Below, one piece after another: positions 1,687 through 63,405 of a stretch of DNA of 64,000 bases. The notes under the pieces are model-generated. The model was not told the DNA's origin. It did not search any database and saw only the letters and a program-made list of their open reading frames with translations. The position numbers and the translations under genes are program-made. Origin of the DNA: Sipunculus nudus (Eukaryota > Annelida > Sipuncula > Golfingiida > Sipunculidae); the NCBI GenBank assembly GCA_026874595.1, contig CM049314.1:31447729-31511728 (forward strand). The letters run 5' to 3'. Each line of letters opens with the position of its first letter. The stretch's first letter is position 1.

Positions 1687-1748
1687 CTGCCGAATTAAAA
1701 AGAAACTCAGGTGATCCTGTGCTTCGGTGTTTACGCCATTTAAATTTT
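1687..1748 (-). CDS. Candidate juxtamembrane exon of receptor copy 1
   Basis: A 62-nt segment has acceptor TATCACAG and donor GTAGGG. Entered in phase 2, as a TM exon would deliver, it reads R-KFKWRKHRSTGSPEFL and ends in phase 1. The cluster of basic residues is what a stop-transfer region just inside the membrane looks like, and the 2-to-1 phase pattern matches the juxtamembrane candidates of copies 3 and 8. The problem is that no TM exon is visible between this exon and module E at 2582-2770, so its connection to copy 1 is inferred. Confidence 0.4.
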
Positions 1749-3695
1749 CTGTGATACCCCACATATGGGCGCATTTCATTCTTGGCTTTAGCCCTTTTAA
1801 TAATCTGTTTCAAAACATGGCCGTGTCATCAGCTGATTATTTGACATGGGATATTAAAACATATTTAAATATGAATTGATCTCTTCTGAATATTTTCTTG
1901 ATCCATATAGAAACTACACGTGTTAAAAAATCAGACCAATTGCAAGACTTCAAAAGCACTCCTTCTTAAAGCAAAGGTTAAAACACCTATTTTCCTATAT
2001 TTTTTTGGTGCTAGATCCACTGTAGTCGTTGTCCTAAATGCTCATAATAAAGCTAGGTATATGAATGCAGGAGAATAATTCCTAGTAGCTGATTACATTA
2101 AAATCATTTATTAACCACAATGCTCGCCTGCATGCAACATAAAATATAAAACATTCCAGACAAATTTGTAAAATATTAAGGAACAACTGAACGATGTTAA
2201 CACATGCTCATGAGACAGTTCTATGACGCTAACATGCTCATTACCCCATTGAATCATCAATATATAACAGATGATTAGTTATATCAAGTCCTATAATAAA
2301 TCTATAATAAATCTTGCCATAAGCGATATATTTTGACAATAAAACAGTGTCAATATGGTATAACCTTCCATGAAAATACGATCATTCACGTTACTTCAGC
2401 ATTAAGGTCCCGCTGGCATTTAAGTTGAAAAGAGACCTTTCTTGTACAAATATGAGGACTTGTTATTGGATACTTATATAAATATAGGTGTCTTACATGC
2501 TGCTTATTTATTTACTTTTTTTATACACTAAAGGCACACAAAAATTATGTTTTACCCTTTGAAAAATTATTCATGTCTTACTGGAACTGTTATAGTTTGA
2601 CTGTGTTATGTTCCATTCTGGACAACACCTTTCAATACAGTTATTTTCGCAGCGTTCCCCGAACCAACCGTCTACGCAAGCACATGCACCGTCAGCCGGG
2701 TCACATGGGGATATAAATCCAACTGAACAAAGCTCCCTACACCGTTCTCCAAATGTGCCTGACCGACATTCTTCAATAGAAAAAGAAAACATTTTATACA
2801 ATAATATTATAAAACAATAATAAACTTCCGCACTTGGATATCAAGCTATTGCGAAATTATTGAAGGAAAATGTAGGAACCATTCAAGAGCCAACACGATT
2901 TATTTCCATTTAAAATATGGATATTGCATTGTCTTCACAAATATATAACCAGCCAATGTGACATTGATATAACATAACAATTTTCAACATAATTTTGAAT
3001 GTTGAGAATCCACATGTGTGATGATGTTTAACAGAGAATCAAGTTGTCGGATCATAAAATCTTGATTTACCATTAAATTCCAAATAGAGTTTTATTCTTA
3101 TCTACTGTACAAATGCTTCATCGCTCTATCTATAATAAGCCAACTTTCCTTAATTTGAGATTAACATTTAACCTAGCCCCATGAGTTTTATAAGCTTTGC
3201 CATCGAATTAAAGGAATATGTATAAATACCCTGATTATCAACACAGTATCTATGTCCATCACATGGACATTTGCCGTCCGTGTCGCAATTTTGATTGTTC
3301 CAAGTCTCACATCGTCTCCCTTTCCACCCAAAACGGCATCTGCAAGAACCATCAGCTGGGCCACAAACATCCTTACAGCCAACCGAACATTTTCTTGTAC
3401 ACGAAGGGCCCCACGTACCAGCTTGACAAACTATGACACAATCATATTTATTTGCAGTAATAGAATATTGGGAACATGGCTTGCGTCATAATGACATTTT
3501 ATAAACGTTTCCAGTTTTACATCTTTAAATCTATTTCACTGTAAATGAGACCGCCTTACCTTTGCCACATTTGTTACCTCTTTTTCCCCGCACACAACCT
3601 CGAAAACATATACCGTCGGTGCTTCGACACGCACTATATTTGCAACTGTAGAGGCATGTGTTTTTACAGTATTCGCCATACCAGCCAACGGCACA

Positions 3696-3749
<54 letters not shown>

Positions 3750-6098
3750 ATATATAAGTCAACTGTGTTTAATTACATCATGTTCGCACAAATTTATACA
3801 TATAAGTCAAGGTAATAGGACACAAATCTCCAGCCCACCTTGTTCACAATTTGCTCCTGCTTTTCCCAGCACGCAGCCGCTGTTGCATAATCCATATTCA
3901 TTGCAGTCTGTATGCTTGCACTTCGTCTTGCAGGATAACTTGCAGTTTTCACCATATTTTCCCCTGGGACATCCTGTAATACAAAAGTGCTAGATTATTT
4001 TGTAATAAGGAAAATTATGTCATTGTAAATTGTTCCTGGGAATAAAGTTATACTTTATATATTACAGTGAAACCCCTCTTGGGCGGACAGTTACGGGACC
4101 GAACGATTTGTCCGTTATAGCGGGGTTTCCGCCCTAGAGAGGATGGGGTCAAGGAGGTCCGTTTAAGACCAAGTATGGGATTAAAGGAACCATGAAAGCG
4201 GGTATTTTTTTATCTATATTTGATCTACAATATATGTTATATGTGAATAAAATTTATTGCACCCGGTTGTTGTGTTTTATTTTATCTTATAATGAGGCAT
4301 ATATGATTAACTGGAACATTATCGTCATGACTTGTGAGAAAATAATATTTTAACATTGATTGGCATCGACTGCACTTACTCGTAAGCGTCTAAACGTATT
4401 TCTGCACTCTGTCCGTAAAATTTCGTAATTCGTTATATTAAGAGAATCGCTTATGGAAAAAAAATAATATCTGACATCTCGTTCATGTTCTGTAAAAATC
4501 CTTCCCGATCGAAAGCAAACTTGATAAATACATGCATGATATCATTTGCGCCTTATGATTGGCAGGTGGGGCTCATTTCAAACGATGCAAATGTTTTAGG
4601 ATAGGGGATTGGCTCCCGCCCCGCCCGGGTGTGTTATTGGAGTAAATCATTTTGAGCAATGAGTGCACGCATAAGTCGCCATACAGGTGCATTTTTTAGC
4701 TTTGATTGTCTTTAATCTAAAGCCCAGCTGAGCCCCCTTTCCAGGCGAGAGGTCATGACCCGTGACTTCTGTCGTCCGATTGTGTAAAAGATACGTCATT
4801 ATCCTCGCTCCCGGGCCCTTGTTAGAACAATGTGGCTCGAATTCAGAATGAATATGTAGCTTCACTGAAAGCTCGCCTCCATAAAATATCCGTGAATTGT
4901 GTCATTTTTATATGCACTACTATGGATAAAAGGATAAATTCTTATCAAAGATCCAGCTGAAAGAAAAGGTAAATTTAGTTAAACTAGCCCATACCTTATA
5001 ATCCTGGAGTTATATGCCTTAAAAATAAGAAAATTAAAGAGATATAAGGCGTACTGGAAACAGACCAAATTTGCAATTTCAAGTATTACTGCGGACATCG
5101 ATCTTGGGTGTCCGTTAGCCGGGACGATTTAAGCAATCGGGAAGAGAAAGTGTCACTTTTCCTGCATAGCGGGGTGTCCGCCCCAGAGGGGATGTTAAAA
5201 GAGAAAAACGCTCGGTCGGCCCAAACACTGTCCGTTAGGCGGGGTGTCCGTCCCAGAGGGGTGTCCGCAGACCGGGGTTTTACTGTAATCTAAATATACG
5301 CGTATCCAGTAAGGTACTACCATTATTTTTTGTCAAGAGGTAAATTAAAGTTGTGTCTGATTTAAAACTATCATGCACCCAATAATCAAAAATATTTTGT
5401 TCACGCCATTTCGTCCCTACTTCATTATTTCCAAGATCAATGTTCCAAAAAGGTCTATGGATCATTTTAACGGACAGATTAGGTAATTTTTGTTGCTTCA
5501 TCACTGAATGGGGTTAATAGATTAATCTCTTGCCGGTAACCGTGGTCTACATTAAGCTATATAAAACCCCGACATTCAGAAAAACAATTACCTGTCAAAT
5601 AAAAAATAGATTTACAGCATGTGCAGTAGCAGAAAGGAAAATTATGTACCATTATAGTAAAAGTATTTACCAATTGCACACGACGATCCCATTCTCCCGG
5701 AAACACATCCGTGTCGACAAGTGCCATTGCGGAAACACTGCTTCTTGGCACAATGTGCTGAGCACGGATGGTCGCAGTAGAGTCCGTATTTATCCGGCGG
5801 ACAAGCTGTTATGGGGTTTGGTGTATAGAATAGAAACATTACTATTTTGTTGTTAGTCAGACAACTGTATGAGAAAATAATATTTAGATCCTTCCGGTAT
5901 GCTCTAATTCACTCTTGCATTGATATTGGATAGATGCAAGATAGATAAAATTAGTTATCTAATTAAATTTAGGATAAAGACACGGGTATTCTAAGAGCAG
6001 TAAAACTCACCTCCAGGTATGGCAAGATGTATAATCTGGCCTTTTGTTGATGAATCCATTATCAACAGTATAAACAGTGTATTGTGTAGTATAAACAT
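1687..6098 (-). CDS. Receptor copy 1: five-module EGF-like (MEGF10/CED-1-like) protein
   Basis: Gene-level entry. Exons in reading order are signal 6011-6098, A 5671-5805, B 3839-3973, C 3560-3697, D 3230-3430 and E 2582-2770, with a candidate juxtamembrane exon at 1687-1748. All six leading exons are open, have GT/AG borders and join in phase 1, giving about 295 residues of secreted or extracellular protein with regularly spaced cysteines. Proteins with this EGF/laminin-like spacing (MEGF10/11, CED-1, SR-F) bind apoptotic cells, microbes or matrix; the ligand here is unknown. No TM exon resembling those at 17.9, 41.6 or 59.3 kb is seen after E, so the product may be secreted, may use an unrecognised TM exon, or may be incomplete. 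Intron A-B carries a 1.2-kb transposon. Confidence 0.75.
2582..2770 (-). CDS. Copy 1 module E exon (EGF-like)
   Basis: 189 nt, phase 1 to phase 1, acceptor CTATTGAAG and donor GTAAGA. It encodes ECRSGTFGERCRELCSVG and continues with DGACACVDGWFGERCENNC, a typical EGF-like repeat, then a CC pair and an Asn-rich end with possible N-glycosylation sites (NIT, NSS). It corresponds to the E modules at 18.6, 32.9, 49.2 and 59.7 kb and is the only clearly intact one among those five. Confidence 0.85.
3230..3430 (-). CDS. Copy 1 module D exon (EGF-like)
   Basis: 201 nt, symmetrical phase 1, acceptor TGTCATAG and donor GTATTT. It begins VCQAGTWGPSCTRKCSVGC, passes through VCGPADGSCRCRFGWKGRRC, and ends with a further cysteine-rich segment including KCPCDGHRYCVD. 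The same longer module (1.5 EGF units) recurs at 10.3, 19.1, 33.9, 52.4, 56.5 and 60.1 kb. Confidence 0.88.
3560..3697 (-). CDS. Copy 1 module C exon (EGF-like)
   Basis: 138 nt, phase 1 both ends, donor GTAAGG. It encodes ECAVGWYGEYCKNTC, then ACRSTDGICFRGCVRGKRG and KCGKG. The acceptor lies inside a GA repeat that directly follows a (TA)n tract on the minus strand. There is therefore almost no polypyrimidine tract, and AG choice could be ambiguous; AG at 3698-3699 keeps the frame and module length of the other C exons. Confidence 0.85.
3700..3757. repeat. (TC)n / (TA)n / TG microsatellite at the module C acceptor
   Basis: The plus strand shows CT repeats followed by about 20 TA units and a short TGTGTGTG run. 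It borders the acceptor of the copy 1 C exon. Open frames through it (IYIYIY) are repeat translations, not genes. Confidence 0.95.
3839..3973 (-). CDS. Copy 1 module B exon (EGF-like)
   Basis: 135 nt, symmetrical phase 1, acceptor TTGTATTACAG and donor GTGGGC. It reads GCPRGKYGENCKLSC, then HTDCNEYGLCNSGCVLGKAG and NCEQG. The unusual GTGGG donor is shared with the paralogous B exon of copy 3 at 22.6 kb. Confidence 0.88.
4065..5285. mobile_element. TA-flanked non-autonomous DNA transposon (Tigger/pogo-like ends)
   Basis: The element starts CAGTGAAACCCCTCTTGGGC and ends, in reverse complement, CAGTAAAACCCCGGTCTGCG. A TA dinucleotide sits outside each end, as expected of Tc1/mariner-superfamily target duplication. 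Its ends contain repeated pieces of the type TGTCCGTTA..CGGGGTGTCCG. It is about 1.2 kb and I see no transposase open frame, so it is a deletion derivative or MITE-like copy. It sits in the intron between modules A and B of copy 1. The superfamily is inferred from TIR style and TA only. Confidence 0.65.
5671..5805 (-). CDS. Copy 1 module A exon (EGF-like)
   Basis: 135 nt, phase 1 to 1, acceptor CCCCATAACAG and donor GTAAATA. It reads ACPPDKYGLYCDHPCSAHC, then QCFRNGTCRHGCVSGRMG and SCAIG. It is the first cysteine-rich module after the signal peptide and pairs with the A module at 23.2 kb. Confidence 0.88.
6011..6098 (-). CDS. Copy 1 signal-peptide exon with start codon
   Basis: The ATG at 6098 opens MFILHNTLFILLIM, a hydrophobic core, followed by a polar stretch ending AIPG and donor GTGAGT in phase 1. 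The split codon (G+CT) gives Ala directly before the first cysteine of module A. A homologous first exon with the same phase occurs in copy 3 at 23551-23644. I chose this ATG because it is followed at once by the hydrophobic run. Confidence 0.75.
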
Positions 6099-9000: not shown

Positions 9001-9718
9001 GTTTATTGTATGGTCTATACATTATGTTGGATTAAGCAGCACAGCATTTACAAAGAAAATAAATTGAGAAAAAAAATCGCTTGATTCTATGATCCCCTGA
9101 TCAGAACTCGGTTATCTTTGAAGTTAAATAATAATAACCCTTAGTCAACAATTTTGAACCGGTAAGATCAACATAAACCATGCTTGAAATATCCGATAGC
9201 GGGTAGATTTGCTTCCTTCGCGCAGCTACACCTTCTTATTGTTCATCAGAAGCTATTGTCATGCATTTTTTTCAGATAATACTTTCTCTTTATTAACCAG
9301 AGCCTATTATTATTATGTTGTGTATTTGTGTTGCCTCGAGGGTAAAATAAATTACTTTATAAATGCTTGACTCAGCAGTATTTTTTGTTTAGTTATTAAT
9401 GTCGATTGGATCCAGTTCATGCGCTTCTGAAGCAAAGAACAATTATAATTCCTTGAAGTTTATGGAAAAAAAACAAATATAGAATCCTGCTTTATTATTT
9501 TCTTATTGAGACATCCCATCTAAATTTTATGACTTCGAATAATTTTAAAACACTAACATTAAATTTGCATGAAAATCTATATGTTGATGATTTCCGGACC
9601 TGGCCGCCCTTTAGTATTTTTATAAAAAAATGTAACAGTATTGTTTGATTAAACCTACTGTAGTATCGATGAAGCCGAAAACTTCGCATAAACAATTTAA
9701 TTTTATATATGACGATTT
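6099..9718. other. No recognised gene; intergenic
   Basis: Apart from AT-rich unique-looking sequence I see nothing here: no EGF-like cysteine pattern, no TM exon, no clear transposon termini. One short plus-strand frame near 8.09-8.14 kb ends at a GTAAGA motif but has no recognisable product. The promoter of copy 1 should lie just above 6.1 kb but no defining motif is visible. Confidence 0.4.
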
Positions 9719-9771
9719 ACATCCAACTGAGCACTTCTCCTGACAACTTCACCATATCTGCCTTGTCCTAA
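9719..9771 (-). pseudogene. Truncated module E relic
   Basis: The reverse complement reads GGACAAGGCAGATATGGTGA and continues to a TGCTCAGTTGGATG-like end, clearly the start of module E (GQGxYGExC..CSVGC). One base is missing before the second cysteine codon and the rest of the module is gone. It is a decayed exon downstream of the D relic at 10.3 kb. Confidence 0.6.
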
Positions 9772-10234: not shown

Positions 10235-10416
10235 TATCAACGCAATCATTCGGTTGATTCTTTGGGTAGGATACACACTGCCTCCTTTGACACACTTTAC
10301 CTTGTTTTTTGTCTCACCTCGTCTCCCTGTCCATCCTGGACTGCACATAAAACCACCGTCAGCTGGGCCGCATACATTCCTGCTACACGAAGTATCCCAC
10401 AGACGAGCTTGGCACA
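10235..10416 (-). pseudogene. Decayed module D exon
   Basis: The acceptor (TTATATAG) and donor (GTAAGG) are still present, but the interior is 182 nt, not a multiple of three. It starts VCQARLWDTSC, then lacks about seven codons that contain CSVGC in intact copies. It resumes VCGPADG..GWTGRRGE with a Cys-to-Gly change, and shifts frame before the end. About 20 bp of intron separate its acceptor from a (TA)n tract. Confidence 0.8.
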
Positions 10417-10487: not shown

Positions 10488-10744
10488 TTAAAAAAAGGTC
10501 ACAGACGGCTCCCCATGCGGTGGGTCCTAAAACAAATTGTGTTATTAATAAAGATAACGTTACTCTTTGTTTTTATAATACGTTAAATTGTTTTTATACA
10601 GGTAATAAAACTATTCTTTGTGTAAACAATTATTTCATGGTATGATTGTTAATTAATTACGTTCTTTCAGGCTGACAAGTAAGAGGGCACAAGAAAGAAA
10701 AAAATAACTAAATGTTTAACTTTGTAATCAACAGCGCTCTTTTA

Positions 10745-11006
10745 ACCCTGTTCAGTTTAATTTCTCAAAATGCTGAGAGTAATGTGGATGCAGTAGACAA
10801 TGATTAGCGCTTTGTGTTTTTACTGACATGCAACATCCACTTAAACATCTAGCCTTACGTACATCCAAGTTTTTTCAATCAGATTTTAAAGATATATATA
10901 ATCATCCCTGTACACATCATTTATGTGTAAATTTAGTTTATGACCAAATTAAGAGATTACTCGTTCATTTACCTCAACATTTCTTTCCTTTAAAGTAATA
11001 ATGTAT
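10745..11006 (+). repeat. Arm 1 of a near-perfect 262-bp inverted repeat
   Basis: Its reverse complement is found at 13037-13298 with, by eye, a single mismatch. The equivalent sequence at about 15.36-15.62 kb in the other duplicate is clearly more diverged, so the inverted copy is younger than the 2.7-kb duplication. Confidence 0.9.
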
Positions 11007-11399
11007 GTGATTAAAATAATCATTTATCCCGTAACTAAATGGTAGCGTGTTTACAAATGATCTAACTCTTAAATTTCACAATTATTTTGTTTCCCAATTA
11101 GAACAGTTGTGTAAATCGATTTTACAAAATACGGTATACATCATAGCCACATGAGCCATTTGGCTATCCTCATTAGACCCTTTTCTAATATACACACTGA
11201 AATTACCTATGATCGGTCCAATAAACAAAAAAAAAAAAAACCAGAAACACAGCATCACTCACTCTTTGAGAGTACTGTCATGTTGGGAGGTAACAAAGGT
11301 TTTGATAGATAAAGGAATTTTCATGAATTTTTTAGCCGAAAATATTTGAATTGGTTAAATAATTCAGAGTACAGGCAGAAACAGAAGAAAAAAAAAACA

Positions 11400-11600
11400 A
11401 ATGGTCAATGTGATGCCGACACCAGGGGGAGCATTAGGTAAGGCATAGACAGTGGTACCAAGCATTGTTGCCACTGACAATTCAGAAAAGTTTTCAGTCT
11501 GTGAACCGGTAATGTAAGGAGACAAATGACTTGTGCAGTTGCCACCAGGTGAAACGCAACTGGACAAATGGTCCAATAAAGGCTTCACAAAATTGTATCC
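11400..11600 (-). pseudogene. Candidate tail exon, left duplicate
   Basis: An open minus-strand frame includes SSCVSPGGNCTSHLSPYIT and later GTTVYALPNAP. The paralogous stretch at 16203-16415 keeps this frame's wording (SPGGNC, LSPYIT, GTTV, ALPNA) despite nucleotide divergence, which hints at past coding function in a Ser/Thr/Pro-rich cytoplasmic tail. No clear splice borders were found, so this is tentative. Confidence 0.3.
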
Positions 11601-12803
11601 CAACCATTACAAAACACCCAAAGTTGGTAGCACAAAAACATGGCTTGATTGCCCATATTGTCTTATGAAAAATTGATCATTTAACGTTAGAGCACAACGT
11701 GAAAAGATTAAACAGACTGGTAACTGATGTATATTTTTTACATTTGTCCGTTGCAAATGTAACTGTAAATGTGTATAGGGTATGGATAGTGCCACATTGA
11801 TAATTTGAGTATGTGTGATATTGTGGTTGATCATTGTTGTTACATCTTACATTTTGACAGCAACTCATCAAAAGCATTAATCGTTGTATGTGTAATCAAA
11901 CACATGAAATAGTGACTTTGACGCGGGAGGGCCTGAATTGTCCAATCGGACGACAGAATAGTTCACAAAGATATATGACAATGGTTATTCCTTTTGCAAG
12001 ATATGTCTGAACGCATGCTATAATTTCCCGGTTTGGCCTGATTAGGCTTCAGTAATAATTGAATATTATTAAAAAATAATTGTACCTTATCTGATTCGAT
12101 TACATGCATGAATGGGCCCTAAACAATGTTAATATTCGAGACAGGCAGTATATTTTTTTCATAATTGAATTTGAGGGAACCTCATGGAAGCACATTTCTA
12201 AATAAAAGATATGAACATTTTTTGGTTATCCAGGGCCATCATGGCGTCCTTCATCACGCGTATAAATTAAGCCATGCCATTTATTTATATAAGTAAAATA
12301 ATCATTCATCCCTAAAAAAAATGAACAAAGTGTGTGTAGAGATAGCGAAGCCGTTATTTATTTTCATTTTATTTTTAACATGTTGTATTGTTCGTTTTGG
12401 GGTACAATAATGATTTAGAGTTGATAACAGAGTCATTCAATATTCACAAATATGCCTCACATTTGGTGAGCCTTGCACATGTCAATATTCTCTAGTCTTG
12501 ATGAATCGGGATTTGACCCCGATAGTGTTGTTTTCAATCCAGCTGTGGATCGGATGTTAGGTATCCTCTAATTCACATAATGTAACATATAAGAACAAGA
12601 GTATGTTAATACACCCCCCCCCCCCACCCTCCTGTCACCAAATGCACATGAAGTTATTTCCGCGATAGGGGTTATAAAGTCGCACTAAGAAATGTTTTAA
12701 AAGAAGAATTGTAATATACCCATGGCTTTTAGCACTCTGCAGATGGCATAAATATGGTGTTTCTGTAAGGTATGTATATAACAAAAAGTTAAAATATACA
12801 TAC

Positions 12804-12847
12804 GTTCCGCCGTTTCAACTGCAATCTTTACACGCACGATCCATGCT
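12804..12847 (-). pseudogene. Juxtamembrane exon with lost acceptor, left duplicate
   Basis: Homologous to 17674-17717. The 44-nt exon still reads RAWIVRVKIAVETAE and keeps donor GTATGT, but the acceptor ends CAA instead of CAG, so it should not be spliced in correctly. Confidence 0.55.
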
Positions 12848-12994
12848 TTGTTAAATGTGAGACAACTGGATTACCCGAATAAAATTAACATTGTTTCTTT
12901 TTCATGTGGAGCACATTTATATAAACCCTGAGTTCCATTTCAAATACTTCGACATTATAAAGCTTTATAAATGCCTATTTAATATTCGAGTATG

Positions 12995-12996
<2 letters not shown>

Positions 12997-13036
<40 letters not shown>
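12997..13036. repeat. (TA)n microsatellite at the inverted-insert boundary
   Basis: A TA run marks the junction where colinearity with the right duplicate stops and the inverted 262-bp segment begins. Confidence 0.9.
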
Positions 13037-13042
<6 letters not shown>

Positions 13043-13298
13043 TATTACTTTAAAGGAAAGAAATGTTGAGGTAAATGAACGAGTAATCTCTTAATTTGGT
13101 CATAAACTAAATTTACACATAAATGATGTGTACAGGGATGATTATATATATCTTTAAAATCTGATTGAAAAAACTTGGATGTACGTAAGGCTAGATGTTT
13201 TAGTGGATGTTGCATGTCAGTAAAAACACAAAGCGCTAATCATTGTCTACTGCATCCACATTACTCTCAGCATTTTGAGAAATTAAACTGAACAGGGT
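13037..13298 (-). repeat. Arm 2 of the 262-bp inverted repeat
   Basis: Reverse complement of 10745-11006 with one visible mismatch. On its right side colinearity with 17.88 kb resumes at once (GTATTG..TTATGGTTCTTAATAT), so the segment was inserted inverted into the duplicate. Confidence 0.9.
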
Positions 13299-13334
13299 GT
13301 ATTGGTTATGGTTCTTAATATCTAAATACTTTAC

Positions 13335-13407
13335 CAGCGCGATACCAAGAACAAAGCAAATAAAATTATGACAAATGCGTATATTCCAGAATATATGGGA
13401 ACCGTTG
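13335..13407 (-). pseudogene. Truncated transmembrane exon relic
   Basis: It reads TVPIYSGIYAFVIILFALFL and ends at donor GTAAAG, closely matching the TM exon at 17916-18057. The stalk-coding first half is missing because an inverted repeat begins at about 13408. A Trp-His to Ser-Arg change precedes the donor. Confidence 0.8.
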
Positions 13408-13626
13408 CAGCTTAATTGTTTGAGTACAAATTTCCCTCCTTAACTATGTCTATAATTGGAATAATTACCTACCATTGGCTATAATGTTATTACTACGAAA
13501 GATGATTTATCATATGTAATTACATGTAGTGCTTTGTACCGACATACAAGAACACGTCATATAAACCAATTAATATCTCCTCCGCAATTTGTTGATCAAC
13601 ATAGCACTCCTTTCTCGATCTCTTAT
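13408..13626 (+). repeat. Arm 1 of a diverged inverted repeat around module A relic
   Basis: Matches the reverse complement of 14223-14434 with several mismatches and short indels. The arms flank the inverted signal exon and the A relic. Confidence 0.75.
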
Positions 13627-13889: not shown

Positions 13890-13994
13890 CACAAGAAATG
13901 CCGACATGTTCCGTTCCTGTAGCAGTGCACAAATTGACGACTTGATGGGTAATGATGCTGGCAAAAGGCTCCATATTTATCCTCGGGACAACAT
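13890..13994 (-). pseudogene. Decayed module A exon
   Basis: Matches the copy 3 A module: CCPEDKYGAFCQ at the start and CYRNGTCRH near the end. The PCPSSC-type cysteines have become YPSSR, the acceptor AG is gone and a stop follows RHFL. It lies between the arms of the 13.4/14.4-kb inverted repeat. Confidence 0.75.
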
Positions 13995-14434: not shown

Positions 14435-15115
14435 TGGATGATGATAGAATATTTGTTCAAATGATTACCCGATATCTTATATAAATATCTTAGAATAATC
14501 TTAGATAAGATATTATGGCCTGCAATGGCTTTTACCTGCGGAAATGGAATCTAGTTTTCTTACTGATGTAAGATACAAATATTCATCTCCCCAATGAAAA
14601 CCCTGCAAGTCTTGTTATTTTTTGAGCACATTAAATATTACCATGTGGTAGGACAATCATGGTATAACCATAGTAGATTTGTTCCCGCTTTCTCATTTAG
14701 CATCGTAGATATTTACAAACAAAAACTACCGTAGATTATCTGGCATCGGGCTTGTACAGACGAGCCCGTGCGAGAATATCGGAAGTTACATGACATGTAT
14801 ACCTTAATGACAAAATAATTGATAACGGAATCAAATTAAAGCAGCATTCACCTTCAAATGTTATCACTTCCGGTTCTCGATAAGAATTTCCTTGCGAAAG
14901 ACTGAGACAAACATAGCTCTTCATTTGTTTAAATCACTCTTTTATAAAAAAAGAGATGTGGGTCACAACACGTAACATTTCAGGTCGTTAGGTTCTTCCA
15001 TAGAAAAAAGTATGTTTGTTTTATAACAATTACATGTTACTTATCTGATTAAAAATAATTATTTTGTTTCAGTAAGACTCTTCCTGGGCTGGGGAAACAA
15101 TTGTCGTCATACGTA
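14435..15115. other. No recognised gene
   Basis: AT-rich spacer between the scrambled unit and the right segmental duplicate. No supported feature. Confidence 0.4.
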
Positions 15116-16202
15116 GACGGCACTCCTATTTGTTGGGTTCTTAAACAGATTGTGTTAATAATAAAGATAACGTTACTCTGTGTTTTTTTTTATAATACAC
15201 TTAATTGTTCTTATACAGGTAATAAAACTAGGCTTTGCGTGAACGATTATTTCATGGTATGATTGTTAATTAATTACGTTCTTTCAGGCTGACAAGTAAG
15301 AGGGCAGAAGAAAGAAAATATAACTAATTGTTAAAATTTGTAATCAACAGCGATCATTTAACCCTGTTCAGATTAATTTCTCAAAATGCTGAGCTTAATT
15401 ACGCTGCATTAGACAATGATTACCGCTCTGTGTTTTTACTGACATGCAACATCCACTAAAACACCAAGCCTTTCGTCCAACCAAGCTTTTTAATCAGATT
15501 TTAAAGGTAAATCTTATCATACCTCTCTGTCCACATCCTTTATGTGTTAATCTCAGTGTATGACCAAATTAAGAGAATACTCATCATTTAGCTCTATATT
15601 TCTTTTTTTTAAAGTAATAATGTGTGTGATTAACATAATTATTTATCCTGTTTCTAAATGGTAGTGTATTTAAAAATTATCTATCTTTCAAAATTCCGTA
15701 AATATTTTCTTTGCTAATTAGACCAGTTGTGCACAGTTGTTTTTGCAAATAAGGTATACATCATAGGCTCATGAGCAATTTGACTATCCTTATTAGACTG
15801 TTTTCCATAATACATATATATTGATCTGTAAGTACAGCTGCAGCGGCAATTATCTATTACACATAATAACACCGGTTCCTCTGTTGCTGTCAGTGGGCAC
15901 ATCCGTGTTTTAACATTAACTCCACCAAGGTAAAACAGGTATGGGTCATTTTTGGTAGGAAACGCGCGTGTCTTTGTAGAACCTCGCTGCCTTAGCGTTT
16001 TTGATGGTAATTCCAAAATTCATAAAACGACAAAAAAGCATCGCTCACTCCTTGAGAGTACTGTCATGTCGGGAGGTAACAAAGGTGTTGATAGATCATG
16101 GAATTTTTTTGAAGTTTGGAGTCAATAATATTTGAATTGGTTATATGTCATTGTACAGGCAGAACCCCAAAAAATAAACAAAAAAAAAAAAAAAAAAAAA
16201 AA

Positions 16203-16415
16203 CAAAAACAAATGGCCAATGTGATGCCGATTGAACAGAAAGAGCATTAGGTAAGGCAAAGACAGTGGTACCAGGCATTGATGAAACTGATGATTCAGAA
16301 GAGGTATCTGTCTGTGATCAGGTAATGTATGGAGACAAAGGACTATCGCAGTTGCCACCAGGTGAAACGTTACTGGAAAACAGATCCGATAAAAGCCTCA
16401 CAAAATTGGTTACCA
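16203..16415 (-). pseudogene. Candidate tail exon, right duplicate, with in-frame stop
   Basis: Paralogue of 11400-11600. It keeps NVSPGGNC, LSPYIT and MPGTTVFALPNA in one frame, but a TGA follows SPYIT. The conserved wording suggests an old exon that is now interrupted. It is not included in the copy 3 model. Confidence 0.25.
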
Positions 16416-44940: not shown

Positions 44941-44941
44941 G

Positions 44942-47254: not shown

Positions 47255-47255
<1 letters not shown>

Positions 47256-47339: not shown

Positions 47340-49080
47340 ATACAAACAATGGTAACCCCGACCGTTTAATATCATAGAATATTGTAATAATCCCGTTTAT
47401 TGTCATGCCTGGAACCCTTGGCATTGATACTAGTTCGAAGTAAATATCACATCAAACGCCAACACGGCGAATAATGCGGCCAAGAGTCTGTAATCGGTCA
47501 GGCGTGTCAAACAATCAGACAAGTGTAGTGATGCAAGGCGATGTTTGCGATCACATGTGATACATAATTAACTGTTGACCTTTGAGAGACCGCGGTTTAC
47601 GCCTCTATGACGTAACGCCGTGATGATATAAAGCATAAGCTGTTAACATTGCTTACGACTTGAAATCCCCTATAAGGGTAAACGAAAAGCTAAAAGTTTG
47701 GTGTGCACTGGAGGAGAGACCCGGCATGAGGCACAATACTCACAGAAAATAAATTGTCAGGTACGCTTAAACGTAATTTGATATGCCGTTGTGTAATAAA
47801 AGTATTCATAAAAGTAATAAAAGTATTCATATTTCCTTTTTTTATTAACGATTTATTTAATATGATTGGTGACATGACGCCTCTTATATGAATCAAAAGA
47901 AGCCCGCATAATATTACCCCCCCCTCTTATTATCATAATTCAAGCATGCACCACCGACATGAAAAAAACGGCCATTTTACAGTTTAACCTCGTCTAACGC
48001 CCACCTGAGCATGACGAACAACTCGAAATTACACTTCGCTCTTCATATCATATATTTAAACCTGGAATAACGGGCACCCCGTTTTTCCGTTTTACGACCA
48101 CTTATTTTGGTTCCAGTGGGTGAACTCGACCTCAATTATGCGACCACTAAATACAGAGCAAACACTGCCCGGCCAGGCGTAGCGGAAGATTGAGCGCAAG
48201 CCATGCGACACGCGTACGGCACAGATTAAAGCGTCTTCAGGGATGCTCACACAAGCCCTTGATTAGAATTATGGCTAGCTATCTTTTTATGAGACCTGCT
48301 GTTAATGATATGCGTGATACATATATTGGCCAATGAGGACTTATGATTGGTATTTGTTCAACATTCGGCTTACGGTTTAAAAACTGTTTATTGGATGAGA
48401 AATATGAGGACAGAGGCTGAATACTCGTTGATGAAAAATCGTACCATGTGAGGGCTGTAAGAATGTGCACGTTTCACAGCTAAGCCGAGACTCTTGATCT
48501 TGTATCCAACTTCTGCCAGACCTATTGGCGAAGGTGTGCACGCCTTGTCAAAGTCGGCAACTTTGTATGGATTAGTTTTTCAGGTGATATACTATATCGA
48601 GCCCTATAGATTTGAATTGTTTGGTCTCAGGTTATTTTTTTGTAATATTTAGGATAAATATTGTACAAATATTCATTATATATATTGCAATATTGTTGAT
48701 AACAAAATCTGTGCTTAATTGAGAAGTCCTTGGATATAATTTATAAATAATTATTGTATGCGCGTTTTTATCATTTCATTTATTTTCAGTATTGAAAAGC
48801 ATACGAAACGTATCTTGTTAACGTATACGAAACCCTTCTTAATATGCAGATAAGGTTGAAAACGACCACTCATTTATGAACTTTATTCTGCGAGTGTAAC
48901 GAAATCTGATACTTGTTTGAATAGATTTAACAAAAAAGAGGTCTTCCTGAAACAACAACCGTCATGCATCATGCTTCAGATGAATTTGAAATATATGTCA
49001 TTTTTTAACATGATATCAAAAATTATAGAGAAACAAAATGGATTTGATGATTAAATCAACACTGTTCCTGCCAATATGGT
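47340..49080. other. No recognised gene; possible transposon end at 47980-48145
   Basis: TA-CAGTTTAACCTCGTCTAACG followed by GGGCACCCCG and GACCACTTATTT motifs resembles the other TA-flanked transposon ends, but is degraded. Otherwise unremarkable. Confidence 0.35.
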
Positions 49081-49117
49081 TAACTGTTGATGTGGCTTTG
49101 CAGCCTTGAGTGACCTT

Positions 49118-49272
49118 TCAATTAGGACAGCATCTTGTTGAACAAATAATATCGCAGCGATCATACCAGCCCTCTGCATATGAGATTTTGCCTTCCTTAT
49201 GGTCGCATTCTGTACGACAGCCAAAGGAGCATATCTGCCCACAATCTTTGCCAAAATGGCTTCTCTCGCAAT
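49118..49272 (-). pseudogene. Decayed module E exon
   Basis: DCERSHFGKDCGQICSFGC, then EGWYDRCDIICSTRCCPN and a TGA. The acceptor GCATTGCAG is intact. Two cysteines of the middle loop are lost (GKISYAEG for GxCxCxEG). Confidence 0.7.
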
Positions 49273-52200: not shown

Positions 52201-52320
52201 TAACATAAATCCGCGAGTTTTAAATTAATAAGTTTCGCAGGTATGCTATATCAAAAAGTTTTCTTAATCGTTTCTAGTTTATTTTAATGTTTTCTCTTTC
52301 TAGTGTCTTTATTGAATATT
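49280..52320. other. No recognised gene
   Basis: AT-rich spacer, partly an enlarged intron between the E relic at 49.2 kb and the D relic at 52.4 kb. A short inverted pair (ATTCGATTGGCA near 49399 and ACCAATCGAAT near 49477) may be a tiny foldback element. Confidence 0.4.
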
Positions 52321-52334
52321 TTCCTAACCAGTGG

Positions 52335-52502
52335 TTGATTTTCTGGCCTCTTCCTCACAGAACTTCTCTTCTGTTATATCGCATCTCTTTCCGGGCCAAC
52401 GTAACTTTCATCTGCAACGGCCGTCACTCACACCACATATAACGGTGCATCCTTTTGAGCAAATCAAGTCACGGCTATTTCCCCATGTACCCGGTTCACT
52501 GA
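52335..52502 (-). pseudogene. Decayed module D exon
   Basis: SEPGTWGNSRDLICSKGC, then VICGVSDGRCR, a TGA, and KRCDITEEKFCEEE. The first cysteine is Ser. The acceptor GAAAAAG is retained. VCGVSDG matches the D relic at 60.1 kb, so the two are closer to each other than to copies 1 and 3. Confidence 0.72.
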
Positions 52503-52857: not shown

Positions 52858-53200
52858 TAGAACATAAGCATGGACGTGGGCAAGTAAATTGTCTCAAGAC
52901 AAATCTCTGCAGCATTTCAAACAAGTATTTAAATCTACGTATCATAATGAGACATTATGCATTTACTTTACAGGGCTTAAGACAGGAGGCAAATAGATAA
53001 ATCATTTGAAAAAATCATAACAAAAAGATTGCCATCAATTTGAGATCATATGTGTCACAATGAATAAAACACTGGAATTTTACTATGCACGTATAGTTAT
53101 GTTACTCGGTACCGTTATTATTTTATGGATTTCCTTACTTATACTAAAGGAATAATAATGTTAATAGCACAGTTGCAAATGAGATAATTGTTTTAAACAC

Positions 53201-53296
53201 CTTGACTGCATGTTCCTCCATGTTTTTCTTTTACACAGCCATATTTCAATCTACCGCTTTGGTAAAATGTAGAATGTATGCAGCCAGGGGAGCAAA
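53201..53296 (-). pseudogene. Short 96-nt module exon, open but truncated
   Basis: Acceptor TTATTTGTAG, donor GTGTTT, phase 1 to 1: VCSPGCIHSTFYQSG, then KYGCVKEKHGGTCSQG. It is a B-type module lacking about 13 residues and several cysteines. The frame is intact but it lies among decayed exons of the same unit. Confidence 0.55.
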
Positions 53297-53626
53297 CTAC
53301 AAATAAGGAATGTTCAAAATGACAGTGTTTATGTGGAACCCACGTATAAAAAATGCTCAACATGTCTAATTTATTTAATATTTATGTGAGGAAAAAATTA
53401 ATAAATATTTAATGAAATGTAATTTTGGCGTAATAGATCATACATGTATCGTTACCCGCTTACCTTTTCTCTGAACAGATACACACACGGTTTATATGAA
53501 CATATTTAATGCATTAAAAGAATGCACTAATCCATGAGGCTGGTTTCAACTATTTTGCTATAGAAACTATGAATTAATGGTTTAGAAACCAAACCAAGTT
53601 ATTACACAAAACTATGTGATAGCGAC

Positions 53627-54645: not shown

Positions 54646-55144
54646 TATACTTTAAGCGTAAAATAAATAATATAAAATCATAAACCGATTATGCTCCGTC
54701 ACATGTCAAATCCACAAAAATCGATCCATCCGAACACAAACTAACATTCAGTAATAGGTCTCTTATCAAAGCTTTAGAAATTCTGCCCTACGCCTTAATT
54801 GATACGATCCAATAATGGGGACTTGGAAGATGTTTTAAGCAGACTCATATAAAGAGAATATTTCTACCATGAAAACTCACCATCTAAATTATCTAAAAAG
54901 CCCACTGCAATAATTAACGACAGATATTGTAACGAAAGATGAACACCACCTAAAAGACGTAACCCAAATAAGATATGTATATTAACACATTGAGAAATAT
55001 GATAAATTCCGAAATAATAAATAAAAACAAATAATCGTACTCTCTATGAACAAAAAGCTATTACCACACTAAAGATTATAGAGAAATAATCATCAGATCC
55101 ACCGATTAAGGCGGCGCCACAGTAAAACAGGACAAACCAGATTA

Positions 55145-56070
55145 TATTAAAGGGGCCGACCGACAATTCGATGATGAAAAATATAACAGAAAATTAGACG
55201 GGAATCAAACTGAAAAAAAATCATTAAAACCACATTCAACAGGAACTATTCACATGCAAAGCCAAAAACCCCGAAACCAGTCATATTCTACACGCTCCCA
55301 AAAATTCATCGAAAAAAATAATCCAGGCAAACCTATTTTTTCCGGTATAGGAGCTCTTACTAAACTAGTTTCTGGATTTGAGGAAACCAATCTAAAAACT
55401 TCCGTACAAAATTCTAATAGCTGTGTCCGCGACACTACAGACTTTCATAATAAACATGATCAACGATATTCCAGAAGACAAGACATTATTTTGGAAACTC
55501 TGGATGTTGAATGTTTATACACTAATATACCTCAGACGGATTGCCTATATGCATGCATGAAACTCCTCAATGATATAAATAAACATAGCAATATAACACC
55601 GAAAATCTTCACTGATTTGGCTGAATTTATCCTTACACAATTATTTTGAATTCGAAGAAAATATTTATCTCCAATAATAAGCAAAGCTGTGGGTACGTGT
55701 ATAGCACCACAATATGCTAATTGCTTTATCAGACACTTGGGGGAAAATTTCTTGGCAAATGAATCTCGTAAACCACTAATTTATCTAAGATACATTGACA
55801 ATATTTTTTTTTAATTTGACGCCACGGCGAAAGTAAACCTTCAGAATTTTACAATAAGTTCTTTAGTCACCACCCTAATATGAATCTAAAACTTGAATAT
55901 TCTACCAATACTATTCATTTTCTGGACACAACGATAAAACAAACTGTCAGAAATATCCAGACTGCACTTCATCGTAAGCCTACTGATCGCCACAACTATA
56001 TACAGAAACTATACCGGAAAGAGCATTGGGAAATCATACCTCTCCTTCCCTCTCACGGGAAGTAGAGTTG
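55145..56070 (+). mobile_element. Second Penelope-like RT relic
   Basis: Plus-strand remnants: LPKIH-type stretch near 55290, GKPIFSGIGALTKLVSGFEE, then TLDVECLYTNIPQT, GTCIAPQYANCF, LRYIDNIF and HFLDTTI with RKPTDRHNYI. The order is that of a Penelope RT, upstream half plus palm. Frameshifts at A- and T-runs break it, and the catalytic YIDD is YIDN. No GIY-YIG end or terminal repeat was found downstream. Confidence 0.8.
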
Positions 56071-56465: not shown

Positions 56466-56633
56466 TCTCGACACAGCCATTGGTTCGTGGTTTGCTTTCA
56501 TTTTCACATCTTCTGCTGTTATGTTTGTCACATTTTTTACCAAACCAGCCAGACTTGCAACTGTCACTAACAAAATGACGTTACGGCCTTCCTCGCAAAG
56601 CGCAGTTATTTCCCCTAAAGCCCCGGATGCAGA
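56466..56633 (-). pseudogene. Lone decayed module D exon
   Basis: VCIRGFRGNNC, a stop, then SCKSGWFGKKCDKHNSRRC and NGCVE before a GTTAGT donor. This is the D-module pattern with its middle cysteines lost. Confidence 0.6.
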
Positions 56634-59265: not shown

Positions 59266-59431
59266 CTGATCCAAACCATCACTACCAATAGCATGCTTAA
59301 TGCCAGTACAAGCATTCCGGTGGTTAAAGCAATATACGCATGAGTGTATTTCGAGAGAGTTGTTTTCGGATTATCATCCAGGGGAAGGTTATCAGGAACA
59401 GTTGTTGGGAGTGATGAAACGTCCGTCAAAT
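59266..59431 (-). CDS. Copy 8 stalk and transmembrane exon (open)
   Basis: 166 nt, phase 1 in and 2 out, acceptor ATATGCAG, donor GTAAAC. Stalk DLTDVSSLPTTVPDNLPLDD, then helix AYIALTTGMLVLALSMLLVV and MVWIR. Architecture identical to the copy 3 TM exon despite little sequence identity. Confidence 0.82.
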
Positions 59432-59589
59432 CTGCATATTATTGGTTATCCAGTTTTATTACATTTCATTGATATGATATCTATTAAATAAGTTAATACA
59501 CTATTTTTTAGTGAACACGTTTCAATGTTTTAATGTGTTTAAAATTGTTGTACCTACCACTTTTGTTGCCATGGCTGTCTATCAAACTG

Positions 59590-59777
59590 ATATTACATTA
59601 TTGTGGTACGTTCCATAGAAGACAACAGTTAGTTGAACAAATGTCGCAACGCTCACCATACCAGCCTTCTTTACACAAGCATTTACCGTCAATATGGTTA
59701 CATTTCACAAGACAACCTGTTGAACACCTTTGCTTACAGAGTGTTCCAAAGAAACCTGGCTCACATGCTGTAACACA
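59590..59777 (-). pseudogene. Copy 8 module E exon ending in a stop
   Basis: ACEPGFFGTLCKQRCSTGC, then GKCLCKEGWYGERCDICSTN and CCLLWNVPQ followed by TAA. In copy 1 the same place continues to a GTAAGA donor; here the donor position reads ATAGAC. The first two thirds are intact with all cysteines, acceptor TGTTACAG. As it stands the transcript would end here, giving a secreted form. Confidence 0.72.
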
Positions 59778-59995
59778 GTTATAAACATGTAACGAATTAT
59801 AAACTTATCTCTGTGACCGCCTATGACACATATTACTATTATCAGTGGGGAAGCGGGCACTGTTTGGGCACTTCTAGATGTTTAAAGGTGTCGATCGACC
59901 CATTAAATCTAAATGGACGGTATTGCTGGTGTTTGTTATTCGATAACTAATATCGTTTCTCAATACTTACAATCTCAGTGAATAAATCCCCTTAC

Positions 59996-60195
59996 CGGCG
60001 ATGCACGTCGTTGGTAGCCTGGTTTACATGTACACCTTCCAACCTCATAACATGTCTAATATTTCCTCTTGTCACAGCGTCTGCCTACCCATCCTAACTT
60101 GCACCTGCAAGCGCCGTCACTGACACCACAGACAGTGCTACAGCCCTCTGAAAATTTCCGAGCACACCCAGCCCCCCACACACCCTGGTTACATA
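59996..60195 (-). pseudogene. Copy 8 module D exon with stop
   Basis: YCNQGVWGAGCARKFSEGC, then VCGVSDGACRCKLGWVGRRC and KRKY, a TAG, TCYEVGRCTCKPGY. One cysteine is Phe, and length 200 nt breaks phase. Acceptor GTCTTCAG and donor GTAAGG remain. Confidence 0.8.
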
Positions 60196-60536
60196 CTGAA
60201 GACATAAAGGAATATCATCATAACTTTAATAATATTGAAGACATTTTGAATTGGGAATTTTAATGCGCGCAAGGTCATTATGACAGAGTACATGCCTAGG
60301 ACATTTAATGATTAAGTATATTTTAAGTTATCTGAGGAGAGAACTACATTAACTTATCTTCGCTGTTCTATCAAATGACCTACATGTTGTCGGCGTGCAT
60401 ACAAATATTTTGTATTTGTCACATATTGTCAAAGACGTCTAGTCCGAAAATATTTTCTTGTATATGACTTACCACTCACTCATGGTCTGCTTACCTAGAA
60501 ATCCTGTTGCCTCAAGTATAATTTTATCAAACCTAC

Positions 60537-60672
60537 CGTGGTGACATTTGTGACCTTTTTCCCAGTTAAGCATCCTTTCAGGCATTTTCCATCTGTCTTC
60601 CGACATGCTCCGTCCAGACAACTCATCAGACATGACAACTTATAATCACGTCCATAAAAGCCCTATTACAAT
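60537..60672 (-). pseudogene. Copy 8 module C exon with frameshifts
   Basis: DCNRAF, a shift, then GRDYKLSCLMSCLDGACRKT and DGKCLKGCLTGKK, and a second shift before KCHHG. Acceptor TTTCTGTAG and donor GTAGGT are intact; 136 nt. Confidence 0.75.
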
Positions 60673-63255
60673 CTACAGAAACACACCGTTTTTTTTTTTA
60701 GATAAAAGAGTATGCACGTTTGAGGACAAACCAGCTACTAAATGTGCTATTCCATTATATCGACAGTTGCAATCAAGCAATAAGTATCATTAAGAACAGT
60801 AATATACTTATTTCAAGCAGTTAGTGTAAATTTGTGTCACTTAATGTGTCTCTGTTATTGATTATTATTAATACTTCTAAGAAGTTAGATGCTTTAAGAA
60901 CTATTTTTTCTACTTAAAACAACTTAACCCAAAGGGGGGGGGGGTTCTCTTTTTGGACAGGGCCCTGCATTTTATTCGTTTAAAGGCACATAACTATCGA
61001 AATAAAGCAATCTTTTCAAGAAGTATCAACAGCACTTAATGGCAAGCCAAACTAAACAGTTTAAAAATATACTCAACATAAGACTAGATAAAAAAAAATA
61101 GTTTCCAAATTTCTCATGGTATATTACAATATATAATAGCTCATCTAAAATGTGCCTGACAAAAACAAGTTTGAATTAGGGAAAATGTTTTCAGGCAATA
61201 AATTGAGCAATTCCAATTGGACGCAGTATCGTTGATTTTCTAAAGTTATACAATAAATTGTTACCACTAATAATCCCTACAATTTAGTGTTTATTATGAT
61301 TAATCATGGGAAACTCAGGCAGTTCATGGGAGATTAACTATAAAAATAATTTATGTACAAATATTGCACTAACTTCAGGCTAAAGAAAAGAATATATATA
61401 CATTTCGTTCATTGGCAAGCTGCATTTTACACCTTTAGTGCATTAGGAGCATATGATTAGAGTAAATAGATAATCCTTTAATTATCTGGTTTGTGCTTTT
61501 GTTTTTGTTTTTACTGTAGAGTGTTATATATAATGCTTAGTGATATTCTTCGTCGATTTACTATCCACAAAACATGTCACAGGGTTTCTAGTCATTACAC
61601 AACTCTACTTTCCATATCTTGTGTCATTATATTAAACATATTATTGTATAGAAGTATATTAATCGGAATATTTCATACATGGGTAAGTCAAGGTTAAAGA
61701 ATTTTCTGTACACAGTTTTTTTACCTTGGCCTCATCTTGGTCCCATTTTGTTTTCCTTATCCATATTGTCAGCTCTGGCAAGACACGTTACAGGGCCTTT
61801 GCTTTCTAGCTTTAAACAGACTAACACTTATTAATACCAAGTATGTCATATGGCCAGCCAGACCCACGACATCTCAGCTGTATATCATACACTCTATGGT
61901 CAATCTTGAGATTATCGTTAGTCCCACTAGCTTCTGTCATATCAAACTCTTTTTTCGCATCAGGATAGTCTGAATACGGATTTACATTATATATAGCTTG
62001 AGATATCATTTATTCCATGACTATTTTAACACTCTGGCAACTCCTTTTATGTCCTATTTCTGTTATGTCCAAATATCATAACCCATGTGTATTTCTATGT
62101 CATATTTATGGCCTCTTCCCAGTACGTAGCATCTAGCATTTCTGGAGATAACAAGAGTGAAAATCTCTGTCATATACTTATATTAAGTATTTTCTTAAAA
62201 ACATAGTGATAGAGGGATATTCATGTAAATGATGTACTATTAGTTAAGTTCTCGGTAAAACATGGAGGGGTCTAACAAGACTCCCGTCCTTTTGAGGATG
62301 AGGCTTAATCTAATTTATATAGATATACTTATCACCTGAGGGCAATTATAAAATGGGATTTCAGAAGCTTAAAACTTACGTGTTTCGTCCGTTAAAAGTA
62401 AGTATAAAAACGATTGTACGATATGAACATTCCAAGGTGTAATATATTTCCAATTAAACAGGCGTTACAAGGGTTACATTTAAAATGTACCTCTCTTTTT
62501 AAACTTAAACAAATATATATTGATAAAATTTTATTCCATTCAGCACCAAACAAAATATTAATGAGATTAGAAGGCCATGTTTTAACAGGCGTTTTACTGT
62601 TTTTATTATTATTATTATTATATTTGTTATTGTTGTTATTGTTATTATTAATATTTTTATTATTAGTATTAATGTGATATGTGTTAGCCCTTTTCACAGA
62701 TCTCCTCTCAGGTATATAACTTTTTCTGGTGCCAGTAAAGGTTTTTCTTAATAGATTTATTTATTATATATAAAAATTCTTTGAAACGGGATGAACAAGT
62801 AGCAGCAATTTTACTTGATTCTTAGAAGATAGATGTAAGGAGCTATATGGTAAAAAGGATATTCAATATCGGTTGGAATTTATGTAGAACTTTAGTGATA
62901 GTGATCCACATATCAGAAAGCAAGTACGTACATATGACTACTCCCCATTACTTTCATTCTGGTGTCATTAAATGTTTTCTAAGAACATGTATACATTACA
63001 AAACCCTTTGCAATTACAAGCATAGGCAGCAACATTTTTTGCATGATAGATATAAGGATTTATTTTGTGAATAGGTTGATCTATGCACGTTGGAATAACT
63101 CCAGAACCATGCTTAAACTGATTAAATTTTTTATTCTGCTGTCATACGATATCTTGGTTGAGTTTAACAAATTTAACAGTTAATATGAGCCTTAATCTCA
63201 AACGTATGTTTTTTTGTGAGAACAAAATACATAGTTGGATTAGTTTTCATGGTAC
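60673..63255. other. No recognised gene; enlarged intron of copy 8
   Basis: AT-rich, with a G-run at 60935-60944 and a (TTA)n/(TTG)n stretch at about 62600-62665. No B module or transposon end was found. Confidence 0.4.
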
Positions 63256-63405
63256 CTTTATCAAAAGTTGGCCTTTGCCTGCCTTCTGTGCAACCATAAC
63301 GATAAGTACCGTTTACATGGCAGTTTCTTCTGAGACATTCCTCTGAACATTTATAATTACATGAAGGCAGCCCGTAAGTACCAACTGGACATCTTTTCCT
63401 AACTT
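63256..63405 (-). CDS. Copy 8 module A exon (open, cysteines reduced)
   Basis: 150 nt, phase 1 to 1, acceptor CATATTACAG and donor GTACCA. EVRKRCPVGTYGLPSC, then NCHVNGTYRYGCTEGRQ. Three positions that are Cys in copies 1 and 3 differ (TYRYGC for TCRHGC, and the terminal Cys is Phe), so disulfide pairing is altered. Confidence 0.7.

Follow-up and report, generated by a model that had tools for sequence, protein, structure and literature searches.

The minus strand of the 64-kb window, the whole stretch of Sipunculus nudus DNA that was analyzed, probably (about 0.7) holds an old tandem cluster of genes, all from a single family of small single-pass membrane proteins; its units were duplicated, and most of them have decayed. 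A profile search reveals 29 copies of five classes of cysteine-rich module (A–E), with a top score of 119.6 bits. The copies span 2.6–63.4 kb, all on the minus strand, and comprise eight of class E, seven of D, six of A, and four each of B and C. As controls, the best match of the module profiles was 7.0 bits on the plus strand and 7.1 bits on the reversed sequence. Each E copy marks one of eight units or unit remnants (U1–U8), in agreement with an initial sequence-only reading, which had counted at least eight units or remnants of one family on one strand. Four of the 29 copies are weak, namely U2 E (7.5 bits with the E profile, 11.4 with D), U6 A (9.2), U4 A (14.2), and U7 E (16.9), and each of them exceeds the highest score that the profile which detected it reached on the reversed sequence. 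Before splice sites were tabulated, the HMM seeds were picked by hand and trimmed so that each starts one residue ahead of the first cysteine. Since the second-round profiles recovered copies from their own training set, only rows that were newly found are independent. Rfam and tRNA scans found nothing.

The exon borders follow a common scheme. An AG dinucleotide is present at the expected phase-1 acceptor base in 21 of the 29 copies, where about 1.4 are expected from an AG frequency of 0.0495. The modules are followed by a hydrophobic exon, as in single-pass proteins, that enters in phase 1, leaves in phase 2, and ends in the donor AG/gtaaa; it is open in U3 (17916–18057) and U8 (59266–59431). 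The U5 membrane exon (41544–41689) has the same donor and a frame problem, and the U2 copy is truncated. In sequence, the membrane stretch of U8 does not match the other membrane stretches significantly, and the match between those of U5 and U3 is weak (E about 0.01), so that the kinship of the U8 and U5 exons rests on place, phase, and donor. The 1-1 phases of the modules and the 1-2 phase of the membrane exon thus stand as first proposed. A 2-1 phase after the membrane exon does not, because the putative juxtamembrane exon of U1 (1687–1793; phase 2-1, read from the sequence) has no convincing second copy in the window by protein and DNA comparison. The best other matches had E values of 0.82 and 0.31 for two protein readings and 0.11 for DNA. 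No tail exon was recognized by eye past the membrane exons of U3, U5, and U8.

U1 consists of a candidate signal-peptide exon (6011–6098), which is signal-like and has the phase-1 donor gtgagt, and five open phase 1-1 modules with GT-AG borders: A (5671–5805), B (3839–3973), C (3560–3697, with an (AT)n run upstream), D (3230–3430), and E (2582–2770). Module E has a phenylalanine in place of one cysteine that is kept in the five other aligned D/E modules. A membrane exon related to those of the other units was not found in U1. One candidate at 2206-2119 was rejected, as none of the other membrane exons is homologous to it and it has no good donor; its best other match (E 0.012) is on the plus strand.

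U5 is a shorter unit with three modules, none of which contains a stop or frameshift: B (42873–43010), D (42456–42677), and a divergent E (41905–42078) with the donor CAG/gtaaat. No A or C module was seen by profile search. Upstream lies a candidate signal-peptide exon (43563–43674) with a start at 43674 or 43623 and the donor CAG/gtaagt. Within the membrane exon of this unit, the frame changes between the stalk and the membrane stretch; only use of an inner acceptor would bring the two into register. At a strict threshold, fixed after both candidates were known, the window contains only two signal-like first exons, situated just upstream of U1 and U5; a looser threshold adds candidates in U1, U4, and U6.

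The remaining units are damaged to different degrees. U3 contains modules A (23218–23352), B (22561–22695; open, with the last cysteine lost), C (21191–21328; a 72-base (AT)n run upstream), D (19023–19226), and E (18578–18750), the last with a frameshift, followed by the open phase 1-2 exon for stalk and membrane stretch; no signal exon was found. In U2, a truncated A remnant that has lost its acceptor (13892–13993) is followed by the truncated membrane exon (13343–13405), a D remnant (10250–10416), and an E remnant (9680–9769). The protein score of this E remnant is low, and its similarity to U3 E at the DNA level decided its class. The truncated membrane exon belongs to a stretch of DNA that U2 and U3 share by duplication; over 21 residues, it has 95% identity with the membrane stretch of U3. 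Matches of <50 bases and matches rich in AT or AG repeats were left out of the duplicated-DNA comparison. U4 comprises a weakly matching A remnant (37969–38070), a B remnant with a stop and lost cysteines and acceptor (34762–34896), a C exon (34237–34374) with a 60-base (AT)n run upstream, a frameshifted D (33770–33977), and an E with stops (32821–33005).

U6 is represented by a weak A remnant (53199–53324), a D remnant with stops (52312–52502), and an E remnant with a stop (49073–49272). The second-round profiles add a weak remnant that resembles C (53719-53624, 11.9 bits) and precedes this A remnant. U7 is a single weakly matching E fragment (56473–56571). U8 has an A that has lost cysteines (63254–63394), a C remnant with stops (60537–60677), a D with a stop (59993–60196), and an E with a stop near its end (59558–59767), in addition to the open membrane exon. 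The order of exons initially described as fixed is therefore only partly kept: classes A–E recur along the array, but U5 is without A and C, the membrane copy of U2 lies between A and D, and the C-like remnant comes before U6 A. The term receptor, likewise, finds support in the membrane exons of U3, U8, U5, and U2, but none was found in U1.

In a tree built from 27 of the 29 module copies of this window (U2 E and U7 E were omitted), 24 sequences group with their own class, as judged by inspection. The exceptions are the three modules of U5, all of which fall outside their class. Support is zero for the node uniting all A copies and 0.64 for the B node. Since the modules group by class, it follows that whole units were duplicated. 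Rates of substitution (NG86 dN/dS) were estimated from open copies of equal length, namely A, B, C, and the initial 43 codons of D; class E and broken copies were excluded. Between U1 and U3, the values are 0.37/0.89 for A, 0.22/1.14 for B, and 0.22/0.66 for D. For C, they are 0.19/2.20 between U1 and U4 and 0.14/0.82 between U3 and U4, and the U1-U3 pair gave no dS. The dS values are large and come from 43–47 codons. In five of six pairs dN is thus smaller than dS, which suggests purifying selection in the past; it speaks of the past because at least four of these five pairs involve the broken U3 or U4.

EGF exons free of stops and frameshifts occur only in U1 and U5. The EGF modules of the other six units show stops, frameshifts, or lost exons, and a complete set of signal exon, A-B-C-D-E, and membrane exon was seen in none of the eight units in the window. 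The sequence-only reading had described states from intact to nearly erased. No unit is demonstrably intact throughout, however, as no membrane exon was recognized in U1, and U3 has a frameshifted E and no signal exon that could be found. Its main proposal, birth and death of units with 1-1 exons that can be lost without a change of frame, is borne out by the grouping of the modules in the tree, the observed lesions, and the existence of U5 with its three modules. The array is a real birth-and-death cluster whose duplicated units are decayed to different degrees. It is mostly dead, and perhaps two of about eight copies are alive.

The window might instead be nothing more than a graveyard of pseudogenes, without a single functional unit, while the live copies are situated elsewhere. 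We consider this unlikely, although the lesions in six of the eight units speak for it. Neither U1 nor U5 is proven intact, because no membrane exon was recognized in U1, a cysteine is gone from its E module, and the membrane exon of U5 has a frame problem; these defects also favor a graveyard. Against it stand the five open modules, GT-AG borders, and signal candidate of U1, the three modules and signal candidate of U5, and the excess of dS over dN, even if the latter reflects an earlier time.

The D and E modules belong to the EGF-like superfamily, as a profile search of the PDB matches them to known EGF modules. The best match is Tie2 (1.5e-16, in three stretches), followed by SCARF1 (9.6e-13, in two stretches). 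The match to SCARF1 does not separate SCARF from Tie. Modules A–C, in contrast, have a conserved cysteine pattern but no PDB match at E values up to 0.1. Against Pfam, A–C show weak matches (best E 0.032 among 8 members). In further Pfam searches with 16 proteins (6 + 10), no match reaches its curated cut-off. When the modules of U1 are joined, a weak match to Tie2 extends over module C (query residues 92-178). AlphaFold models of one D and one B module were poor, with mean pLDDT of 49.4 and 48.8, respectively. By tblastn, no relatives of the joined U1 modules were found in viral contigs (1 pattern match), and none of the U1 D module in prokaryotic contigs (111 pattern matches); these collections are viral and prokaryotic, so both results carry little weight.

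Several known systems resemble the units in part. Tie2, the angiopoietin-1 receptor, gives the best D/E match in the PDB. Tie receptors contain a tyrosine kinase and Ig and fibronectin domains, whereas a kinase pattern has no match in six frames of the whole window. SCARF1 shares EGF-type modules in series and the D/E match, and it differs in that the A–C profile has no PDB match and the units here have only 3–5 modules and an unconfirmed tail; SCARF receptors have a long cytoplasmic tail. The D, E, and U5 modules also match the teneurin, laminin, and DSL types of Pfam EGF families weakly, but every match is under the curated cut-off. Draper, MEGF10, and CED-1 are, like the bivalve draper- and MEGF-like genes, EGF-module membrane proteins of large families. 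Proteins of the Draper, MEGF10, and CED-1 group carry an EMI domain at the N-terminus and, on the cytoplasmic side, a tail with NPxY and YxxL motifs, and they have more EGF modules than the units described here. The EMI signature W.CC.G, a simple pattern, has no match in six frames. The titles and abstract openings of the papers found by literature searches contained no description of this module arrangement, which is not proof of its absence. A study of Crassostrea virginica hemocytes reports dozens of draper-like and MEGF-like transcripts, and its phosphatase category groups receptor phosphatases with EGF-like-domain proteins (PMC13070813).

That category, together with Tie2, a receptor kinase, as the best D/E match, would fit units that are the ectodomains of larger receptors, either phosphatases or kinases, with catalytic exons farther off or lost. 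The tail of U1 could indeed lie to the left of the window. The six-frame patterns, a weak test, argue the other way: in addition to the lack of a kinase match, the PTP signature HC..G..R has no match, and a phosphatase pattern has only two, both the four-letter VMLT (at 33557 and 10196), and neither is situated after the membrane exon of a unit that has one (U3, U5, U8). We regard larger receptors as improbable. It is hardly credible that all units form one giant, alternatively spliced gene with a long series of EGF exons, although the common strand and phase of the module exons would keep any combination in frame. Against such a gene, membrane exons occur repeatedly along the series (in U8, U5, and U3), a further signal-like exon lies at U5, and stops or frameshifts interrupt many of the exons in between.

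In the preferred reading, a tandem cluster of small membrane proteins, each gene would have been built from a signal exon, up to five EGF-type exons A–E in phase 1-1, and a stalk-plus-membrane exon in phase 1-2. Whole units were duplicated, and most of them then decayed through stops, frameshifts, and loss of exons. The members most likely still expressed appear to be U1 and U5 (B-D-E), and these two can be named as candidates for live members. The five-module product of U1 may be secreted, or it may have a membrane exon that escaped recognition. By analogy with scavenger receptors of the SCARF1 and Draper type, the ectodomain could be a short rod of disulfide-bonded modules that binds a ligand outside the cell; both the ligand and the signaling route are guesses. 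Because every module exon is symmetrical, loss or skipping of a module shortens the rod and keeps the frame, and the array is a compact case of how 1-1 exons let a receptor family drop modules. The idea of a distinct five-module subfamily with a short tail is not demonstrated, as the window contains no complete five-module unit with a membrane exon and the tail is unconfirmed. Should the A–C module turn out to be common, such receptors would be hidden from annotation by a gap in the domain libraries. Otherwise, this is an ordinary EGF-module gene cluster, a receptor family that grows and decays.

A bolder and rather doubtful extension is that U1 (A-B-C-D-E) and U5 are both live short receptors, that A–C are of a type that no Pfam model clearly recognizes, and that the length of the (AT)n run could alter the inclusion of exon C, giving four- and five-module forms. 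The window contains 21 AT arrays of at least 24 bases. In three units (U1, U3, and U4), the exon C acceptor has an (AT)n run no more than 10 bases away, and the presence of this run at the same exon is probably due to one inherited event.

A cluster of genes for membrane proteins with EGF modules, mostly dead, is present in the window. Profiles of the five cysteine-rich, EGF-like module classes (A-E, one exon each), seeded with copies picked by hand, were applied to six frames with stops read through. They identified 29 module copies on the minus strand, with a top score of 119.6 bits; the best match was 7.0 bits on the plus strand and 7.1 bits in the reversed sequence. The upper ends of the copies are 5806, 13993, 23353, 38070, 53315, and 63394 for A; 3974, 22696, 34896, and 43011 for B; 3698, 21329, 34375, and 60677 for C; 3431, 10417, 19227, 33978, 42678, 52503, and 60196 for D; and 2771, 9763, 18751, 33006, 42079, 49273, 56571, and 59768 for E. 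Units U1-U8, counted from the left, are defined by the eight E modules, and the claim of the sequence-only reading that eight units or remnants of one family lie on one strand is borne out.

Four copies scored weakly with the first-round profiles: U7 E (16.9 bits), U4 A (14.2 bits), U6 A (9.2 bits), and U2 E (7.5 bits with the E profile, 11.4 with the D profile). The last was assigned to class E because its DNA matches U3 E over 82 columns at 80%. Second-round profiles, trained on the copies already found, added three weak rows that outscored the controls for their class: two A-like, at 37081-36983 (14.9 bits) and 37610-37515 (7.2 bits), and one C-like, at 53719-53624 (11.9 bits). The remaining new rows reached at most 4.6 bits.

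The phase-1 acceptor AG occupies the exact expected base in 21 of the 29 copies, where the minus-strand AG frequency of 0.0495 predicts about 1.4. The eight copies lacking it (U8 A, U8 C, U7 E, U6 A, U4 A, U4 B, U2 A, and U2 E) are all damaged: each has lost cysteines, acquired stops, or been truncated. In U1, U3, and U5 the open copies are followed by phase-1 GT donors, as is U4 C. Exons of class 1-1 are described as the usual type for extracellular modular proteins of animals (PMC8001218), which makes this part of the exon grammar expected rather than special. An (AT)n run ends at most 10 bases from the exon C acceptor in U1 (3705-3741), U3 (21332-21403), and U4 (34380-34440), and another lies about 20 bases upstream of the U2 D remnant; the window contains 21 AT arrays of at least 24 bases.

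The membrane exon, encoding a stalk and a membrane stretch after the modules, starts in phase 1 and ends in phase 2 with the donor AG|gtaaa in U3 (18057-17916, minus strand) and U8 (59431-59266, minus strand). U5 has the same donor, and its stalk and membrane stretch are in differing frames when read from the outer acceptor; an inner acceptor, if used, would preserve phase 1. U2 retains a truncated copy. The U5 membrane sequence matches U3 weakly (E about 0.01) and that of U8 matches neither significantly, so the equivalence of the three exons rests on place, phase, and donor. The putative juxtamembrane exon of U1 (1687-1793, minus strand) permits a phase 2-1 reading, and protein and DNA searches of the window gave no convincing second copy. 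No membrane stretch related to those of other units was found between it and U1 E; the best hydrophobic candidate there lacks a good donor and a homologue. Of the proposed repeating phases, 1-1 for modules and 1-2 for the membrane exon stand; neither 2-1 after it nor the juxtamembrane exon was seen to recur. With no convincing copy of that exon and no related membrane exon found in U1, none of the units displays the full order from signal to juxtamembrane exon.

U1 and U5 are candidate survivors of the cluster, being the sole units whose EGF exons carry no stop or frameshift. All five U1 modules are open and bordered by GT-AG, and a signal-like exon lies at 6098-6011 (minus strand); the U1 E module carries phenylalanine at a position that is cysteine in the five other D/E modules aligned. 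In U5, B, D, and E are open, A and C were not found, and a signal-like exon has its lower end at 43563 (minus strand). U3 possesses all of A-E and a membrane exon, with E frameshifted and B short of one cysteine, and U2, U4, U6, U7, and U8 show stops, frameshifts, missing exons, or mere fragments. A strict first-exon scan of both strands (ATG, at most 49 codons, hydrophobic, phase-1 donor matching at least 8 of 9 bases) returned only the U1 and U5 exons, with a threshold chosen after a looser scan had already revealed both. The looser scan, run upstream of six units, gave further candidates in U1, U4, and U6. The coincidence of the strict matches with the two units free of stops and frameshifts in their EGF exons is the best hint that both are alive; since the membrane exon of each is problematic, we infer their survival rather than assert it.

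In a module tree, 24 of 27 modules group with their own class (E, 5/6, support 0.97; C, 4/4, 0.93; D, 6/7, 0.76; B, 3/4, 0.64; A, 6/6, joined at a node of zero support), which argues that whole units were copied. The exceptions are all three U5 modules, marking U5 as the most divergent unit. Exon DNA common to U1, U3, and U4 is 67-84% identical, and no DNA match above threshold touches U5, U6, or U8 modules; the array is therefore old. dN was below dS (NG86) in five of six module pairs, and U1-U3 C returned no dS. U2 and U3 share a duplicated segment (10503-13409 and 15115-17990; three pieces, 81, 84, and 89%) that is younger than the array and has the U2 membrane remnant in its most similar piece. 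Inside this segment lies a 262-base inverted repeat (10745-11006 and 13037-13298, 99.6% identity). The U3 C-D intron contains a perfect 416-base tandem duplication (19609-20443), which arose very recently or else is an artefact of assembly.

The D/E profile matched Tie2 and SCARF1 in a PDB profile search, and the A-C profile had no PDB match with E of 0.1 or below. Eight A-C members gave weak Pfam matches (best E 0.032); in other Pfam scans, covering 16 proteins, no match reached its curated cut-off. Judged by these profile comparisons, the A-C type is clearly recognised by no Pfam model, the one modestly unusual feature of a cluster ordinary in kind. A weak Tie2 alignment of the joined U1 modules also spans module C, and A-C may therefore descend from the same EGF stock as D/E and have diverged. 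EMI and kinase patterns had no match in six frames of the window, and phosphatase patterns had only two, both four-letter. By anatomy the units resemble a short version of the SCARF/Draper receptors, of which they are candidate kin rather than established members. Expanded families of this type have a precedent, since dozens of draper-like and MEGF-like genes are reportedly expressed in hemocytes of the eastern oyster (PMC13070813).

Retroelement-like sequence also occurs in the window. At 45130-47284, plus-strand ORFs resembling reverse transcriptase (45643-46965, motif YIDD) are overlapped at their ends by a pair of 541-base arms with 97% complementarity. The ORFs match Pfam RVT_1 weakly and under the cut-off (E 0.039), and the structure resembles a Penelope-type element. 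A second plus-strand ORF pair (55110-56062) looks by eye to be of similar kind, without support from the Pfam scan. A minisatellite occupies 29248-29632, with a 25-base unit repeated about 15 times.
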